A stretch of DNA of 64,000 nt from Fibrobacter sp. UWB2 (lineage in GTDB: Bacteria > Fibrobacterota > Fibrobacteria > Fibrobacterales > Fibrobacteraceae): assembly GCF_002210425.1 (NCBI RefSeq), contig NZ_MWQK01000002.1, forward strand, positions 620,001 through 684,000. Direction: 5' to 3'. Below, piece after piece: positions 11,164 through 19,643 of the stretch (position 1 is the stretch's first letter; each line of letters begins with the position of its first letter). Under the pieces are notes generated by a model. The model was not told the origin of the DNA, searched no databases, and saw nothing but the letters and a program-made list of their open reading frames with translations. A program made the position numbers and the translations under genes.

Positions 11164-11427
11164 ATGGATATTAATGAATGGCGCATTCGCATTGACGAAC
11201 TTAATGATGAACTGATGTCGCTCCTCAACAAGAGGGCTACATACGCTGCTGAAATTGGGAAAATCAAGAAACAGAAAGGTTTGCCCGTTTTTGATGAAGG
11301 TCGCGAACAGTCTGTCTTGAATTTGGTCGCCGAGAAGGCCGCAAAGGCCGGTGGCCCGCTTTCTCCGGAATCGTTCCAGAATATTTTCCGTGTCATCATG
11401 GAAGAAACTCGCAAGGTGGAAGAATAA
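11164..11427 (+). CDS. Chorismate mutase (AroQ class)
   Basis: The 87 residues form the all-helical AroQ fold: RIRIDELNDELMSLLNKRA carries the active-site Arg and the Lys-Arg pair, KIKKQKGLPVFDEGRE supplies the next charged residues, and a third helix ends with FRVIMEETRKVEE. It rearranges chorismate to prephenate at the branch to Tyr and Phe. Its stop overlaps the ATG of the next gene (TAATG), so translation is coupled with prephenate dehydrogenase, the next enzyme of the pathway. Confidence 0.9.
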   Translation: MDINEWRIRIDELNDELMSLLNKRATYAAEIGKIKKQKGLPVFDEGREQSVLNLVAEKAAKAGGPLSPESFQNIFRVIMEETRKVEE

Positions 11428-12611
11428 TGGTTGCCCGCATTACTATGGTGGGGTTTGGCCTCTTGGCTAGCTCGATTGCTGCGGCCATCAAACAGGCTAA
11501 GCTTCCGACGAAGATTCGTGCTGTGAGTTCTCCTGCAACGCTCAAGCGTGCTCGTGAACTTGAACTTGCCGATGAATTTTTTGAATACGGTGAGACTGAA
11601 AAGTGGGCGAAGGATAGCGACCTGATTTTGCTCTGTGCGCCGATCCTCCACATTTTGAAGATGATTGATGCGCTCGGTAAAGTTTCGTGGGCTGGTGCTA
11701 ATGCTGGCCGAGAAATCTTGGTGAGCGATATCGGTTCGACGAAAGTTGAAATTTGCAAGGCGGGCGTGCGCTTGCCGGCTCCGTTCCGCTTTGTCGGCAG
11801 CCACCCGATGGCGGGTTCCGAAAAACGCACTTGTGAATACAACGATCCTGCGATTTTTGAAAATGCATATTGGTTTGTCTGCCCGCCAGATGGAACGCCT
11901 GAATCTGTTTATGCCCCGCTTCTGGAAATTATCCGCTTTGTGGGCGCAAATCCTGTCGTGTTCCCGCCGGAACATCACGACCGCACGATGGCATGGGTGA
12001 GTCACATGCCGCAGATGCTGAGCTCAACGCTTGCCGGGAACTTGCCGGAACGCTTGCTCAAGCACAACTACCAGCATTTTGCAGGCCGCGCTTTCCGCGA
12101 CATGACGCGCATTGCCGCTTCGGGTTGGGGAATGTGGCACGATATCGCCGTGACGAATCGCGACGAGACAACTCGTGCGCTTTGCGAAGTCCGTGATGGT
12201 CTCGACAAGACGATTGCGGCGATGAACGGGCTCAACGTCGTGAAGGACGGTAAGCCTGCTTCGGGTGATTTTGAAAATGACGAGCATAGCGTGGTTGCGG
12301 ATAATTCGCAGGCGCTTGCCGATATTTTCAAGGCGGGTAACGATGGCCGTGCGAGCTTGTTTGCTCCGGGTCGCAATAACACCAACTCGTTCTACGAAAT
12401 TACGGTCCAGCTCAAGGATAAGCCGGGCGCTCTGTTGAGCGTGATGCAGCCACTTGCCGAAGAAGGCATCAACATTCGCGACATAGAACTCATGAAGGTC
12501 CGCGAAAATGTGGCGGGTACGCTTTTGCTTGCGTTCAAGACTCAAGAAGAAGCGGCACGTGCCGTGAAGACGCTGCAATATTTGGAATACGAAGTTAAAG
12601 AAAGACGTTAA
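11427..12611 (+). CDS. tyrA: Prephenate dehydrogenase with C-terminal ACT domain
   Basis: The N-terminal nucleotide-binding motif is VGFGLLASSIAAAI (residues 8-21). DIGSTK and GSHPMAGSE (catalytic His region, about 125-135) follow, then SHMPQML with the second conserved His, and a helical dimerisation domain. Residues about 318-392 form an ACT domain (YEITVQLKDKPGALLSVMQP) expected to bind tyrosine for feedback control. It oxidises prephenate to 4-hydroxyphenylpyruvate with NAD(P). It is translationally coupled to the chorismate mutase. The hisC gene a few kilobases downstream could supply the transaminase step, which is inference. Confidence 0.93.
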   Translation: MVARITMVGFGLLASSIAAAIKQAKLPTKIRAVSSPATLKRARELELADEFFEYGETEKWAKDSDLILLCAPILHILKMIDALGKVSWAGANAGREILVSDIGSTKVEICKAGVRLPAPFRFVGSHPMAGSEKRTCEYNDPAIFENAYWFVCPPDGTPESVYAPLLEIIRFVGANPVVFPPEHHDRTMAWVSHMPQMLSSTLAGNLPERLLKHNYQHFAGRAFRDMTRIAASGWGMWHDIAVTNRDETTRALCEVRDGLDKTIAAMNGLNVVKDGKPASGDFENDEHSVVADNSQALADIFKAGNDGRASLFAPGRNNTNSFYEITVQLKDKPGALLSVMQPLAEEGINIRDIELMKVRENVAGTLLLAFKTQEEAARAVKTLQYLEYEVKERR

Positions 12612-12630: not shown

Positions 12631-13998
12631 ATGGAATTCTTGATGAATCCCGACCGTGAACGGATGAATTTGACGTTGGTGATGGCGCTTTTGGTGAATG
12701 GCCGCACCGTGTTGGAAAATTTTGCGTGGGCAAGTGGTAGTGAAAAGTATGCCGAGGCGCTGAAAGAATTTGGTCTCACTTACGAATTGCAAGGGCATCA
12801 GCTTGTCTTAAATGGCAAGGGGTTCCAGTACTCTATTCCGACCATGCTTCCGTTCAAGTTCAACGAAGCTGATAACGTGATGCTTTGGACGCTCGCGAGC
12901 AAGGACGAAGAACAGCTATACACGTTTGCTGCTGAAGTTGATGATGCGGGCATTGCCCGTGTGAATGCGGCAAAGGAAACGCTCCAGAAGTATTTCAAGA
13001 TTAAGGTGCAAAAGGATGAACCGGCAAAGTTTGTCTTTAACTTTTTGCGCGATGAACTGAACGTCAAGAAGGATTCTCTGGGGAACGTTTCGTCTGTGAT
13101 GCGCAACAGGCTTTTGCTCCGTGCGCTTATCCGCAATGACTATTTGAATTTTGAAGAAAAGTCTACGGTGCATGACCAGTGGACGAAAATGCTCATCTAC
13201 TTTGGTGCGGCTGTGAAATATGAAGGCCGTGGCATGGAACAGTTGAGCGAATTCGAACGCCGCTTGATGATTGCTCAGGGCAAGAAGATTGAACGTACGC
13301 AGTTTACGGAACTTTCGGAGACGAAGGTGATTACCGCGCGTGAATACTATGTGCCGGGTGATACGACGGAAGCGACTGCGTTTGCGGTACTTGCTACTGT
13401 TGGGAATATGCCGAAGGACAACGTCATCAAGCTTTTGAACGTAGACTTGAACAGCAGCCGTGCGGGTGCGCTCACATGCCTCAAACGTATGGGCGCGAAT
13501 GTTGAAACGGTGAGCCGTCGTGAAAAGTATGGTGATGTTTTTGGCGATGTTGAAATCAAGCCGCTTGCTTCTGGAAAACGCTTGCAGGGCCGCCGCTTTA
13601 GCGAAGACGTGATTGCGACTGCGCTCGAAGAATACCCGCTGTTGGCAGTGGCGGCTTGCTATGGCGAAGGCGAAACGATTTTGCGCGTGCCCAAGGAAGT
13701 CCGCAAGGAAATGCGCCCCGTGAATGAATTTTTGGCGGTGAACTTGCGCAAGACGGGTGCCGAAGTTGGCGTGTACGACGATGGCCTTGTGATTCGCGGC
13801 CTTGAAACGATTGTGAACGGTAGCGATTTTGACGGTGGCGATTCGGCGCAGATGGGGCTTGCCTTGAGCGTGTTGTCGCTTGCGCTCCAGAACGATGAAC
13901 TGGTTGAAAATATGGACAAGGTCGAAGCGATGTTCCCGGGTGTTGTCGACAAGCTCAAGAATGTGCTTGTGGCAGAAAATGCCGAGAAGAAGGAATAA
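12631..13998 (+). CDS. EPSP synthase (AroA)-fold protein with degenerate active site
   Basis: The 455 residues align by eye along the EPSP synthase family. LTLVMALLVNGRTVLENFA matches the first inside-out repeat, VPGDTTEATAFAVLATV matches VPGDxSSAAFFLVAA, EEYPLLAVAACYGEGETILR matches the EIPVLAVAA region, and RVPKEVRKEMRP stands where RVKESDR is expected. Key residues differ: the GxKSxSNR phosphate/PEP loop reads DRERMNL, the NAGTAMR loop reads NEADNVM, and the catalytic Asp before IPVLAV is Glu. It is therefore probably not a standard EPSP synthase. It follows tyrA by 19 bases with an AAGGA site, so it is expressed with the aromatic genes. A regulatory or altered-substrate role is possible. 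Confidence 0.75.
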   Translation: MEFLMNPDRERMNLTLVMALLVNGRTVLENFAWASGSEKYAEALKEFGLTYELQGHQLVLNGKGFQYSIPTMLPFKFNEADNVMLWTLASKDEEQLYTFAAEVDDAGIARVNAAKETLQKYFKIKVQKDEPAKFVFNFLRDELNVKKDSLGNVSSVMRNRLLLRALIRNDYLNFEEKSTVHDQWTKMLIYFGAAVKYEGRGMEQLSEFERRLMIAQGKKIERTQFTELSETKVITAREYYVPGDTTEATAFAVLATVGNMPKDNVIKLLNVDLNSSRAGALTCLKRMGANVETVSRREKYGDVFGDVEIKPLASGKRLQGRRFSEDVIATALEEYPLLAVAACYGEGETILRVPKEVRKEMRPVNEFLAVNLRKTGAEVGVYDDGLVIRGLETIVNGSDFDGGDSAQMGLALSVLSLALQNDELVENMDKVEAMFPGVVDKLKNVLVAENAEKKE

Positions 13999-14039
13999 TT
14001 AGGCTACGCTTTGAGTGAACGCGAAGCTTGAGGATGGTT

Positions 14040-14924
14040 ATGGAAAAGTCTTTCAGCAGCATTGGAATTGTCGGGTTCAAGGACAAAAGTGCCGATTTGG
14101 CATGTGCCTTGAAGCAGATTACTTCTTGGGCGCTTGAACACCCGCAGGTGAAATTTTATGCGCTCGATTCCCTCAAGGAACTCGTGAAAAAGCCGATTCG
14201 CGTGGTGAAAGAATCCGCGCTGCAGAAGACCGATTTGCTGCTTGCTATTGGCGGTGACGGCACGGTGCTGACGGCTGCGCATATGGCGCTTGGCCATAAC
14301 ATTCCGATTCTTGGTGTGAATGCCGGGCGCGTGGGATTCTTGGCGGAATCGCGTGTGGAAGGCTTGACCAAGACGCTTGATAGCTTGCTTGCTGGCGACT
14401 TCTCGACTCGCGAACGCATGATGATCGAGGCTGCGGTTTATCACGGCAGAAAGTGCATTGCAAAGCAGACTGTTCTGAATGAAGTCCATGTGCGTGCACA
14501 CGCTCCGGAACGCATGGTGAACGTCAACGTGGCTTATAACGATACTTGCCTGACGGAATACTGGGCGGATTCGATTCTCGTTTCGACGCCGACGGGTTCG
14601 ACTGCATACAACCTTGCTGCTGGTGGCCCGATTATCCACCCTTCGACGCCTGCGGTGGTGCTCACGCCTGTGGCTCCGAGCAGCCTCTCGGTGCGTCCGC
14701 TTGTGCTTTCGCTTACGGATAAAAAATTGCGAATGGCTTCGGCGGTGAATTGCTCGCTCGACCTCGTTTTTGACGGGCGCATCACGCTTGAAATGAAACC
14801 GGATGAATATGTGATGTTGTCTGAAAGTAAGCTTGTGACGACGTTTATTCGTATGCGTCACACGGGATTTGTAGGCGCTCTTCGCGAAAAGCTTGGCTGG
14901 ACGGGGAAGCCGCGTTCTGCTTAA
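14040..14924 (+). CDS. nadK: NAD kinase
   Basis: Residues 71-75 give the GGDGT motif with the catalytic Asp. GVNAGRVGFL, NEVHVRAHAPERM and DSILVSTPTGSTAYNLAAGG follow, all standard for bacterial NAD kinase. It makes NADP from NAD with ATP or polyphosphate in the cytosol. The ATG at 14040 is preferred over an upstream TTG because a GAGG site lies seven bases before it. Its stop TAA overlaps the stop of the converging pseudouridine synthase gene in a shared TTAA. Confidence 0.93.
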   Translation: MEKSFSSIGIVGFKDKSADLACALKQITSWALEHPQVKFYALDSLKELVKKPIRVVKESALQKTDLLLAIGGDGTVLTAAHMALGHNIPILGVNAGRVGFLAESRVEGLTKTLDSLLAGDFSTRERMMIEAAVYHGRKCIAKQTVLNEVHVRAHAPERMVNVNVAYNDTCLTEYWADSILVSTPTGSTAYNLAAGGPIIHPSTPAVVLTPVAPSSLSVRPLVLSLTDKKLRMASAVNCSLDLVFDGRITLEMKPDEYVMLSESKLVTTFIRMRHTGFVGALREKLGWTGKPRSA

Positions 14925-15796
14925 TGCTGCGGGGCGTCAATTTTTTTGATGCAGCCTTGCTTTAAATCGCCCAACTCAAAATTGCAGAACTTGATGCGCA
15001 CAAGGCGCAAAACTTCGTAGCCGAGCTTCGCGAGCATGCGACGAATTTCGCGATTCTTGCCTTCGTCCAAAGTGATTTCTAACCAACAGTTCTTTTCGCC
15101 TGCGCTATAGAGCTTGGCGCTGACGGCGTGCATGAATTCTTCGGGCTCGCCAAAAACGCGGGGTGGGACGTTGAAGCCTGCTTCCATTTGCGAAAGTTCT
15201 TCGGCGGTGGGGTGCCCGTTAACCTGCACTCGGTAGATTTTTGTGTGGGTGGGGCCGCGCGACTCTCGTTCTACGCATTTGTCGTCTCTCGTCTTTCGTC
15301 TCTCGTCTTTCGTCTTTAATAAAGCATCCGCCCATTGCGTATCGTTTGTAAATAGCAAAAGCCCTTCGCTAGCGGCATCGAGCCTGCCGACGGGCGATAT
15401 GTGCGGCACTGGCTTGCCAGGGAACATCTTGGCGTATTGCTCGCGGAAAAGGTCCATGACGGTTGCGCGCCCTTTTTCGTCGCTTGCCGTAGTGACATAG
15501 CCGCGCGGCTTGTTCATCATAAAGTAGACGAACTCGCTTGCCTTTACGGGCTTTCCGTCAACGCAAATTTCATCATTTTCACGGGCGGGAGTGTCCGGAT
15601 CGCGGACAATTTTACCACGCAAAGAAACCCGGCCCTCGCGGACCAGGTTTTCTGCTTGGCTTCTGCTGCAAAAACCGCGCTTAGAAATCACACGGGCAAC
15701 GCCGTGAGCTTTGGCGTTAGTGGCGCCAGACGCGGGCTTTGTGCAGCCTCTTTCCCGGTTTACTTGCCGAGATATGCCTTGATGTTTTCGAGGCAT
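14921..15796 (-). CDS. rRNA pseudouridine synthase, RsuA/RluB family, with low-complexity insert
   Basis: An S4-like RNA-binding segment (ARVISKRGFCSRSQAENLVREGRV, about residues 33-56) leads to the catalytic domain, with FMMNKPRGYVTT, the GRLDAASEGLLLFTND motif containing the catalytic Asp, and the C-terminal EGKNREIRRMLAKLGYEVLRLVR. It converts uridine to pseudouridine in rRNA. A stretch of about 20 residues (TKDERRKTRDDKCVERESR) interrupts the domain between the LLLFTND strand and IYRVQV. It is encoded by a CTCGTCTTT tandem tract resembling an intergenic repeat. The ATG at 15796 lies inside the end of hisC, and about 30 N-terminal residues precede the conserved domain, so a later non-ATG start is possible. 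Confidence 0.88.
   Translation of the reverse strand: MPRKHQGISRQVNRERGCTKPASGATNAKAHGVARVISKRGFCSRSQAENLVREGRVSLRGKIVRDPDTPARENDEICVDGKPVKASEFVYFMMNKPRGYVTTASDEKGRATVMDLFREQYAKMFPGKPVPHISPVGRLDAASEGLLLFTNDTQWADALLKTKDERRKTRDDKCVERESRGPTHTKIYRVQVNGHPTAEELSQMEAGFNVPPRVFGEPEEFMHAVSAKLYSAGEKNCWLEITLDEGKNREIRRMLAKLGYEVLRLVRIKFCNFELGDLKQGCIKKIDAPQH
15281..15318. repeat. CTCGTCTTT tandem tract inside the pseudouridine synthase gene
   Basis: Roughly four alternating units of CTCGTCTTT and CGTCTCTCG lie in frame within the gene and resemble the intergenic repeat at 5441-5485. Confidence 0.55.
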
Positions 15797-16869
15797 TTCT
15801 TGTTCTGAGCTTCGGTACCGACGGTAATGCGGAGCACGTCACCCATAGCCGGCTGCGGACGGATGATGGTGCCCTTGGCCTGCAAGAACTTGAAGGCGTC
15901 CATCGGATCCTTGAATCCGCTGACGGCGATGAAGTTTGCGTGGCTGTCGACGTAGGGGAGGCCCATTTCCTTGAAACCTGCCTTGAGCTGTTCGAGCCCC
16001 TTCTTGTTGAGTTCGCGAACCTTGTTCACGTAATCCTGGTCGTCGATAGCGCCGATGGCAGCTGCCTGAGCGATGCTGTTCACGTTGAACGGTTCACGCA
16101 CGCGGTTGATGAGGGCGACGATTTCCGGACGGGTGATGCAGTAGCCCACGCGCAGCCCTGCAAGACCGTAGATCTTACTGAACGTACGGCAGCAGATGAT
16201 GTTCTTGCCAGCGGCGATGCGGCTGTTGAAATCCGGGACGAGTTCCGGCGTGTCTTCGATAAATTCGGTGTAGGCTTCGTCCATCACGAGAACGCAAGTT
16301 TCCGGGAGGCTGTCGGCGAAGTCCAAAATTTCCTTGGCGGTGAGGTCAGAACCCGTCGGATTGTTCGGGTTAGCGAGGAACACGATGCGGGTCTTTTCGT
16401 TCACGGCGTCGCGCATAGCCTTGAGGTTGTAGTTGTATCCCGGAGCCGGCATGTCAACTTCAACAATCTTGGCGTTCATGGCCATCGTGGCAAGCTTGTA
16501 AACAGCGAAGCTGTGGTTGCCCATGACGGCTTCCGTGCCGGGGCCGAGGAACACCTGGGCAATCATGTCCAAAAGTTCGTTACTGCCGTTACCCACAGCA
16601 ATCTGGTCGCGGTTCACACCGCGGAATTCAGCAATCTTTCCGATGAGGTCGTAAGAACCGCCATCCGGATAGAGGTTCACTTCTTCCAAAGCCTTGCGAG
16701 CTTCGGCCATGCCCTTCGGGCTCGGACCAAACGGGTTTTCGTTGCTGGCGAGCTTGTCGATGTCTTTCGGGTCGAGGCCGAATTCACGAGCGGTGTAGGC
16801 GATGGGTTTGCCGGTCACGTAGAGCGGCTGCTTCAAAATGTGCTGTTGTGCGAGCTGATTGATATCCAT
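15760..16869 (-). CDS. hisC: Histidinol-phosphate aminotransferase (class I/II PLP enzyme)
   Basis: The 369 residues show LASNENPFGPSP, NLYPDGGSYDL, VGNGSNELLD, FLANPNNPTG, DEAYTEF and TFSKIYGLAGLRVGY with the PLP-binding Lys, all standard for HisC. It transaminates imidazole-acetol phosphate in histidine synthesis; members of this family often also act on aromatic keto acids. With tyrA nearby and no other aminotransferase in view, a dual role in tyrosine and phenylalanine synthesis is possible. The downstream pseudouridine synthase frame overlaps its last 37 bases. Confidence 0.9.
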   Translation of the reverse strand: MDINQLAQQHILKQPLYVTGKPIAYTAREFGLDPKDIDKLASNENPFGPSPKGMAEARKALEEVNLYPDGGSYDLIGKIAEFRGVNRDQIAVGNGSNELLDMIAQVFLGPGTEAVMGNHSFAVYKLATMAMNAKIVEVDMPAPGYNYNLKAMRDAVNEKTRIVFLANPNNPTGSDLTAKEILDFADSLPETCVLVMDEAYTEFIEDTPELVPDFNSRIAAGKNIICCRTFSKIYGLAGLRVGYCITRPEIVALINRVREPFNVNSIAQAAAIGAIDDQDYVNKVRELNKKGLEQLKAGFKEMGLPYVDSHANFIAVSGFKDPMDAFKFLQAKGTIIRPQPAMGDVLRITVGTEAQNKKCLENIKAYLGK

Positions 16870-17954: not shown

Positions 17955-19643
17955 ATGTTTGAAGCTTCGAATCGAATTTTAGCGGTGCTGTGCGGACTTG
18001 CTGTTTGTGCGTCTGCTGCGGTAGATCAGTGCAAGCCGATTGGTTGGGTGACTCGTTCGGGCCGTACGTCGACCGAATTTAATGTGACCGGTGGCGGAAA
18101 CTCGACTCCCATTACCGTAAAAACATTTGCTGATTTGCAAAAGTACGCGAAGGATTCTTCTCCGCGTGTGATTTACATTGATGGTACGCTTGGCGATGGC
18201 TGGAGCGGAACATCGGGCAGTCGCCTGAATATCACCGCATCGAACAAGACGATTATCGGACTCAAGCCGGGAACGCTTTTGAAAGCTCCCATCCACATCA
18301 CGAGCAAGGCTTCGAACATCATCATCCGCAATATCGTGATTCAGGGTCCAGGCAGCAATGCAGACCAGGCGTGGGACAATCTCACGATTGAAGGTGAATC
18401 GAAGAACATCTGGATTGACCACTGCGAATTTTGGGATGGTCAAGATGGCAACGCTGACGTGGTGAAAGGTTCTGATAACGTAACATTCACATGGTGCATT
18501 TTTGGCTACAAGAAAAAGAGTACGCACAACTTATCTAACCTCATTGGCAGTTCCGATAACGAGCCCGTGAGCGAAGGCAAATTGAATGTGACTTACATGT
18601 TCAACTGGTGGAAGGCTGCAAACCAGCGCAAACCTCGCTGCCGCTATGGTAATGTGCATGTGGTGAACAACCTTTTTACGGGTGACGCTAGCATCACGAA
18701 TGGTACGGATGTGCTTGGTGTTGCTGCAGGGCATATGTGCAGAGTGCGCACCGAACGCAATGTGTTCATCAACGAAAATAATCCGATTTATACAGGTGTT
18801 GCAAATGGCACGGGCGTGAATGAAGTTATAGACAACATTTTCACAAACTGCTCAGGCAATACGAAGGGAACGGGGACTTCTTTTACACCGCCGTATGAAT
18901 ACACGAGCTTTATGCTCAAGGCGAGCGAAGTTGAAGCTGCCGTGAAGGCGAATGCGGGCGCTACGCTCAAGAGTCCGACGGAATGTGATGCTAATTATGT
19001 GGAACCGGAACCGCCGACACCTGATAAACAGTACCAGACCGAAACGGGTACGGTTACAGGTGGTGTTTCTGAAAGTAGCAATGGCGGGTACCACGGTGAT
19101 GGCTATGTGAATTTCGATAAGGGCGGCGATGTCGTCGTGAACGTGAAAGTCGATACGGCTGGTCAATACAAATTCGATATCGATTTCGCGAACGGCTCTA
19201 GCGAAGCACGCTCTCTTGCGGTTTCTGCTGGTTTAGATACGGCAACGACATCTTTCAAGACAACTGGTGGCTGGACTGTCTGGGAAACGGCTAAGGTCTT
19301 GGTGAATCTTGCTGCAGGCGAAAATGCAGTGAAGTTTGCAACCGTTGGCGGTAATGATGGCCCGAACATCGACCAGTTCGATGTCACGCTCGTAAAGGCT
19401 GCGGAAAAAGATTCGACGGAAAAGCCGACGTCGATTCACACGAAAACAGCTGCTGTGGTTGAGCCGAGCGTTTATCGCGTTAGCATTTTCGATACGAAGG
19501 GTGCTTTAGTGCGTCGTATGAATGTGGAATCCGCAAAAGTCGGCGATGTCGCTTGGATGACCCGTGGCCTGCCTGCTGGCTTGTATGTGATGCAGCTGAA
19601 GAGCGCAAATACGGAACGCCGCAAGTTTATTGCCGTGAAGTAA
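17955..19643 (+). CDS. Secreted pectate lyase (PL1) with CBM-like and C-terminal sorting domains
   Basis: A signal peptide (residues about 1-21) is followed by a PL1 parallel beta-helix (about 40-340) with the family landmarks WIDHCEFWDG, DVVKGSDNVTFTWC, and RKPRCRYGNVHVVNN, which carries the catalytic Arg region. A proline linker (EPEPPTPDKQ) leads to a jelly-roll carbohydrate-binding region of CBM6/35 type (about 360-480, ending NIDQFDVTLV). A C-terminal domain of about 70 residues (YRVSIFDTKGALVRR ... GLPAGLYVMQLK) resembles type IX-like sorting domains. It should cleave pectate by beta-elimination outside the cell. An AAGGA site precedes the ATG. Confidence 0.92.
   Translation: MFEASNRILAVLCGLAVCASAAVDQCKPIGWVTRSGRTSTEFNVTGGGNSTPITVKTFADLQKYAKDSSPRVIYIDGTLGDGWSGTSGSRLNITASNKTIIGLKPGTLLKAPIHITSKASNIIIRNIVIQGPGSNADQAWDNLTIEGESKNIWIDHCEFWDGQDGNADVVKGSDNVTFTWCIFGYKKKSTHNLSNLIGSSDNEPVSEGKLNVTYMFNWWKAANQRKPRCRYGNVHVVNNLFTGDASITNGTDVLGVAAGHMCRVRTERNVFINENNPIYTGVANGTGVNEVIDNIFTNCSGNTKGTGTSFTPPYEYTSFMLKASEVEAAVKANAGATLKSPTECDANYVEPEPPTPDKQYQTETGTVTGGVSESSNGGYHGDGYVNFDKGGDVVVNVKVDTAGQYKFDIDFANGSSEARSLAVSAGLDTATTSFKTTGGWTVWETAKVLVNLAAGENAVKFATVGGNDGPNIDQFDVTLVKAAEKDSTEKPTSIHTKTAAVVEPSVYRVSIFDTKGALVRRMNVESAKVGDVAWMTRGLPAGLYVMQLKSANTERRKFIAVK

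Follow-up and report, generated by a model that had tools for sequence, protein, structure and literature searches.

EPSP synthase (AroA), the target of glyphosate, is among the best-studied enzymes. In another fold family, catalysis has been lost and a binding role kept by Rcl1, an inactive relative of RNA 3'-phosphate cyclase that acts in eukaryotic ribosome maturation. Our literature search turned up neither a report of a dead EPSP synthase that is conserved nor, within the portions of text available to it, one of a demonstrated second role of this enzyme. Linkage of the EPSP synthase gene with tyrA was described earlier in the order hisHb > tyrA > aroF, and the accessible part of the same article reports for Pseudomonas syringae a dead tyrA-aroF remnant together with an acquired aroF (PMC1173090). 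Its authors suggest that the remnant might in future become a regulatory domain.

An aroA-like gene also follows tyrA in the window described here, i.e. the whole stretch of 64,000 nucleotides analysed from Fibrobacter sp. UWB2. The gene cluster lies on the forward strand and begins with genes for a type II chorismate mutase (AroQ; 11164–11427) and a prephenate dehydrogenase TyrA with an ACT domain (11427–12611), both recognized as open reading frames (ORFs) with profile matches. The ORF under study (12631–13998, forward strand) begins 19 bases after the tyrA stop with an ATG preceded by AAGGAA, and encodes 455 amino acids plus a stop; it thus stands right after chorismate mutase and TyrA, where the first-pass annotation had placed it. 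A TyrA-AroA gene fusion was rejected, the two being separate ORFs. Next comes an NAD kinase gene (14028–14924, forward strand), which is listed with a TTG start at 14028 and has ATGs at 14034 and 14040. A terminator-like stem-loop covers its end (14912–14937, forward strand), such sites being no commoner in this region than in shuffled sequences. Near the tyrA cluster, on the opposite strand, a HisC-type aminotransferase is encoded (15760–16869); tyrA and hisC adjoin in many bacteria. Elsewhere in the window, a large ORF (17955–19643) appears by eye to encode a secreted, pectate-lyase-like protein with a C-terminal sorting-type tail.

The ORF listing, Pfam and NCBIfam profiles, an AlphaFold2 model and a residue comparison were used to characterize the product of 12631–13998. 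To judge by its sequence, it is a pseudoenzyme derived from EPSP synthase in which the fold is retained at full length and the active site is lost. The Pfam EPSP_synthase profile gives 73.2 bits (cut-off 22.8) and the NCBIfam aroA model TIGR01356 gives 95.7 bits, far under the equivalog cut-off of 287.25; plain sequence searches returned weak matches that were good only over residues 209–445 or so. The AlphaFold2 model, computed from an alignment of the window protein with 22 of 24 related-locus proteins, has a mean pLDDT of 79.5 and the two-domain EPSP-synthase fold. Among known structures it matches EPSP synthases best, and these fill all of the best 20 Foldseek places; VIA-align paired 393 residues with EPSP synthase 3rmt_B over model residues 1–452 (Z 29.2; rmsd 3.6). 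The AroA fold that had been claimed from the letters alone is therefore borne out.

As active-site positions of EPSP synthase we take K22, S23, R27, N94, G96, R124, Q171, D313, K340, E341, R344, H385 and R386 (E. coli numbering). None of these 13 residues is kept by the window protein, and all 13 are kept by the other AroA of the same genome. The place of the K-S-x-S-N-R loop is taken by RERMNL (residues 9–14; 12655–12672, forward strand), with R, E and L for K22, S23 and R27. Residues 77–83 (12859–12879, forward strand), which correspond in position to the NAGTAMR loop, lack the motif, in a pairing that depends on the alignment, and codon 333 (13627–13629, forward strand) specifies Glu where the catalytic Asp313 stands. 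That both loops and the catalytic Asp are altered, as had been noticed at first reading, is confirmed by these comparisons, in which residue pairing is alignment-dependent in the N-terminal half and firm in the C-terminal half (D313, K340-E341-R344, H385-R386). Among 25 positions listed for 41 family members of the phylum, only the equivalent of Asp242 is nearly always kept (40/41); the catalytic set is kept in 25 canonical AroAs of Fibrobacterota.

A canonical aroA, which the first-pass annotation had proposed to seek elsewhere in the genome, was found complete on contig C5 (TIGR01356, 436.8 bits). The genome (15 contigs, 99.99% complete) has three EPSP-synthase-family genes, encoding this AroA, a MurA (contig C2) and the dead copy. 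Thus, 12631–13998 was rejected as the functional sole AroA, and a recent duplication of the genome's own AroA was rejected because the two fall in different clades. All trees reported here come from 'quick' searches and contain long branches. In a tree of 102 rows, from which two duplicates (L124, L170) and two partial sequences (L177, L178) were left out, the 46 members of the dead-copy family from Fibrobacterota form one group (SH-aLRT 96). This group nests among AroAs of the PGDKSISHR type from other phyla (98); the outside AroAs were drawn from 30 genomes picked non-randomly among the best family-profile matches. The working AroAs of Fibrobacterota make up two further clades, one in class Fibrobacteria and one, of the SKSHTIR type, in the remaining classes; that of the window genome is closest to gammaproteobacterial AroA structures. 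The difference by class points to at least two acquisitions (L001 and L058–L081). Outside Fibrobacterota, TyrA stands directly beside AroA in at least 12 of 30 loci. Because the dead copy groups with these often tyrA-linked AroAs of other phyla and not with the working AroAs of its own phylum, it looks like an old resident aroA that was displaced by acquired ones rather than a copy.

At E<=1e-50, a limit set after viewing the match list, the family profile matches in 155 of 167 Fibrobacterota genomes. Five of the 12 genomes without such a match belong to family f7 (G077, G078, G083, G097, G111) and seven are under 90% complete (G015, G038, G096, G101, G110, G152, G162), G110 having a piece at a contig end. 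Within the genus Fibrobacter, matches are present in 59 of 61 genomes, none with an internal stop, and the gene is under strong purifying selection, with a median dN/dS of 0.045 (75 pairs) next to 0.054 for TyrA (76) and 0.039 for NAD kinase (82). The absence of internal stops and the low dN/dS led us to reject a recent or decaying pseudogene; a Fibrobacter-only oddity was likewise rejected, as relatives occur across the phylum. Of the earlier description as a dead paralog, the first word stands, for a protein kept by selection, and the second does not if it means that the protein arose by a recent duplication of the AroA found elsewhere in the genome.

The neighbourhood is conserved as well. 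Of 73 loci examined in Fibrobacterota, 68 have TyrA directly upstream (three others are contig ends, and L103 and L114 are without it) and 49 have chorismate mutase nearby. NAD kinase is directly downstream in 69 (one contig end, three without), a count composed of 65 loci with NAD kinase no more than 350 bases from the profile match and four (L036, L125–L127) in which the match ends early; in L125–L127 the dead-copy and NAD kinase ORFs either overlap or are at most 20 bases apart. In G078 and G083, both of family f7, tyrA adjoins NAD kinase with nothing between, so that the dead-copy gene was either lost there or never present, and its lack in this family implies that it is not universally essential. 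G076 has the gene between chorismate mutase and NAD kinase without TyrA at that place, and a whole-genome domain search found no PDH_C-type TyrA in this genome (the control was positive in 12 of 14). Chorismate synthase is present in all eight Fibrobacterota genomes tested. Family members of genus g26 (L125–L127) are shortened to about 370 amino acids, with much of the N-terminal domain missing, and those of genus g5 (L089–L092, L094) have an extra, mostly low-complexity stretch of about 100 residues in the first half. A plasmid search returned 22 records, all below 60% identity; among the best five of the 22, the genes are AroA genes where annotated.

All 46 aligned family members carry about 25 extra, basic-rich residues that follow the final helix of domain 1 and lie next to the interdomain hinge. 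In the window protein, alignment and pN/pS place this lineage-specific insertion and its flanks at residues 199–238 (13225–13344, forward strand), with ELxRR...K in many members. With pN 0 and pS 0.30 over 66 close-relative pairs, these residues are among the most constrained stretches; pLDDT is below 50 at residues 200–207 and 219–236 of the model. Insertion-bearing AroAs also occur in a second phylum, that of G175, as intact, half-decayed and fully dead copies. The segment comprises 29–51 residues in 59 rows (35 in the window protein) versus 10–13 in other AroAs. Decay among the insertion rows is graded, 11 of them keeping 12–13 of the 13 active-site residues, four keeping 6–9 and 44 keeping 0–3, and each of the 21 sampled AroA rows without insertion keeps 13/13 (the fragment L180 was set aside from these counts). 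The insertions of both phyla share their place, a similar length and a basic make-up; their sequences are divergent. When the insertion columns were left out of tree building, two changes were needed for the insertion and four for the loss of catalysis; the node uniting every insertion row has a support of 77.8, which is not strong. A single loss of catalysis was rejected at p-AU 0.036, a weak result for a group named after the tree had been seen. In this same, second tree, which has 81 rows and includes second-phylum members, the Fibrobacterota rows are not one clade (two changes). Conserved positions of the dead proteins are Arg211 in the insertion (37/45), Arg352 (44/45), Gly380 (41/45) and Gly385 (45/45), Arg352 and Gly380 being less conserved in AroAs that lack the insertion. 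These four residues lend loose support to a binding surface on the insertion and domain 2.

In the second phylum, some family match is present in 116 of 132 genomes, and our sample covers 40 loci from 37 genomes plus G175 and G323. Most intact copies are located in a shikimate operon composed of arginyl-tRNA synthetase, DAHP synthase, sometimes TyrA, and then AroE, AroK and AroB. Dead copies follow arginyl-tRNA synthetase and usually precede a MatE transporter. Since the genes flanking the family change from one phylum to the other (tyrA and NAD kinase versus arginyl-tRNA synthetase and MatE), synteny names no partner. Chorismate synthase was sought by profile in 39 second-phylum genomes; many genomes are multi-contig, and absence is judged from profile matches. 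All 14 control genomes gave a positive result both in this search and in that for the AroA family. Apart from G500 (12/13 residues, genome 84% complete, chorismate synthase not found), all ten genomes with a complete insertion-AroA have chorismate synthase, and it was detected in none of the four with half-decayed copies. For the 24 genomes with dead copies, the result was positive in eight, a sub-threshold trace in one (G469) and negative in 15, ten of which are at least 90% complete and one of which (G478, 98%) is a single contig. No AroA above the cut-off was found in any of these 15. Among the eight with chorismate synthase, five have an AroA over the cut-off, G393 has a contig-end fragment, and G391 and G484 have none. 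Where the pathway is not detectable, the dead copies persist under constraint that is weaker than that on arginyl-tRNA synthetase (dN/dS 0.12 and 0.14 versus about 0.05; two pairs from two pathway-less genera).

Further members of the fold family came to light in these searches. G172, a genome of another phylum (82% complete) in which chorismate synthase was not found, has a contig-end AroA fragment (L180 / L183:1-762) with the decayed motifs EELT, RMPASDR and DYRIA and without the full insertion. A third, divergent EPSP-synthase-family gene (L182:3399-4664; 84.7 bits) lies in G293 beside a gene with a start that looks TatC-like by eye, and G182 has a weak third frame of the family (L181:4155-5348; 53.6 bits).

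The dead AroA-like protein probably does another job than EPSP synthesis. We cautiously favour a model in which an EPSP synthase with the insertion served a further purpose that did not depend on the pathway, and in which catalysis was given up after an aroA of other descent had replaced it or the pathway itself had disappeared. In such an ancient bifunctional lineage, the shikimate-independent role of the hinge insertion would have outlived catalysis several times, in two phyla, including bacteria that make no chorismate. The ancestor would have been an EPSP synthase with an inserted basic segment beside the interdomain hinge, combining EPSP synthesis in the cleft with a shikimate-independent binding function, and the insertion and domain 2 would form a surface on which a macromolecule or a different enzyme docks. 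Unrelated aroA genes would have assumed catalysis in Fibrobacterota; in the second phylum, another aroA might have taken over or the pathway might have been lost. The cleft would then have decayed, with the fold, the insertion and domain 2 retained. We infer that the second function is older than the loss of catalysis and acts through the insertion. The docking surface is conjectural, as residues 219–236 are poorly modelled, and the dead proteins of the two phyla may have diverged in function.

A regulatory or scaffolding role, already considered in the first-pass annotation, would make the protein a subunit of the aromatic pathway that adjusts tyrosine synthesis by binding to TyrA or chorismate mutase. 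The tight packing of the genes, the upstream TyrA in 68 of 73 loci and the nearby chorismate mutase in 49 are compatible with this role, and it has been suggested that a regulatory domain could arise from an aroA remnant linked to tyrA (PMC1173090, accessible part). However, working AroAs are also commonly tyrA-linked, so that the linkage may be mere inheritance. Moreover, the role cannot be the whole story because G076, whose genome gave no PDH_C match, still keeps the gene, flanked by chorismate mutase and NAD kinase, and because the second phylum retains family members in genomes where chorismate synthase was not detected. We regard it as unlikely in general, if possible for TyrA in Fibrobacterota. 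It is very unlikely that the protein is an accessory factor of NAD kinase, even though this is the next gene downstream in 69 of 73 loci, including that of G076 without TyrA: family f7 has NAD kinase without the dead AroA, and the second-phylum members adjoin arginyl-tRNA synthetase and MatE, NAD kinase not being among the matched neighbours. Possible as it may be in Fibrobacterota, a role with either partner fails to explain the second phylum.

Retention of the fold and of the Asp242 equivalent could speak for an enzyme that uses the old cleft for a different reaction or substrate. Yet the residues contacting PEP and shikimate are gone, with replacements that differ by lineage, and the protein of genus g26, of only about 370 amino acids, has a short N-terminal domain; we consider such an enzyme very unlikely. 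The specific proposal of an enolpyruvyl transferase for another substrate is unsupported since the PEP-contact residues, which we take to be K22, R124, R344, H385 and R386, are lost too. It seems quite unlikely, finally, that the dead AroAs of the two phyla arose separately and that their insertions are not homologous. The divergent insertion sequences, the long branches and the joining support of 77.8 would fit separate origins, but the insertions agree in place and basic make-up, are similar in length, are absent from 21 of 21 other sampled AroAs, and require just two changes on a tree built without their columns.

Since a single lineage offers natural proteins that are intact, half-decayed or dead, the proposed order of events, second function first and catalysis lost later, can be tested on them. 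For annotation, a PF00275 match beside tyrA is no proof of an EPSP synthase, and counting dead copies would wrongly credit the shikimate step to bacteria that are probably unable to make chorismate. In acid-tolerant strains, chorismate mutase Fisuc_2558 and TyrA Fisuc_2559 are up about twofold according to the accessible part of the report (PMC5442110). By gene order, Fisuc_2560 would be the dead AroA; it does not figure in the main text of that report, as far as accessible. The same article notes that in 2017 genetic tools for Fibrobacter were lacking.

Compared with known systems, the window protein shares with EPSP synthase AroA (TIGR01356, PF00275; 3rmt, 3slh, 1g6s) the full-length fold, the tyrA-aroA order and the Asp242-type PGD loop. 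It differs in having none of the 13 active-site residues, a score of 95.7 bits against a cut-off of 287.25, and the extra insertion. MurA (TIGR01072) belongs to the same fold family (VIA-align Z about 23–24), but MurA identity was rejected, as a search with the window protein gave no hit to MurA models at E<=1, and the genome has its own MurA. In the bifunctional TyrA/AroA protein PRK14806 (NF011381) the two activities are likewise associated, whereas the window genes are separate, the score is 94.6 bits against a cut-off of 902, and the active site is dead. Rcl1 resembles the window protein as a fold relative without catalysis whose binding role was kept, yet it belongs to another family and is eukaryotic. 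As far as the accessible text of PMC1173090 goes, the TyrA-AroF (AroA) remnant of P. syringae is alike in that a tyrA-linked aroA lost catalysis and an aroA of other origin was acquired. That remnant, however, is a truncated fusion domain of one lineage, whereas the window protein is free and its family mostly full-length, conserved across the phylum, equipped with the insertion and represented by relatives where the pathway is not detectable.
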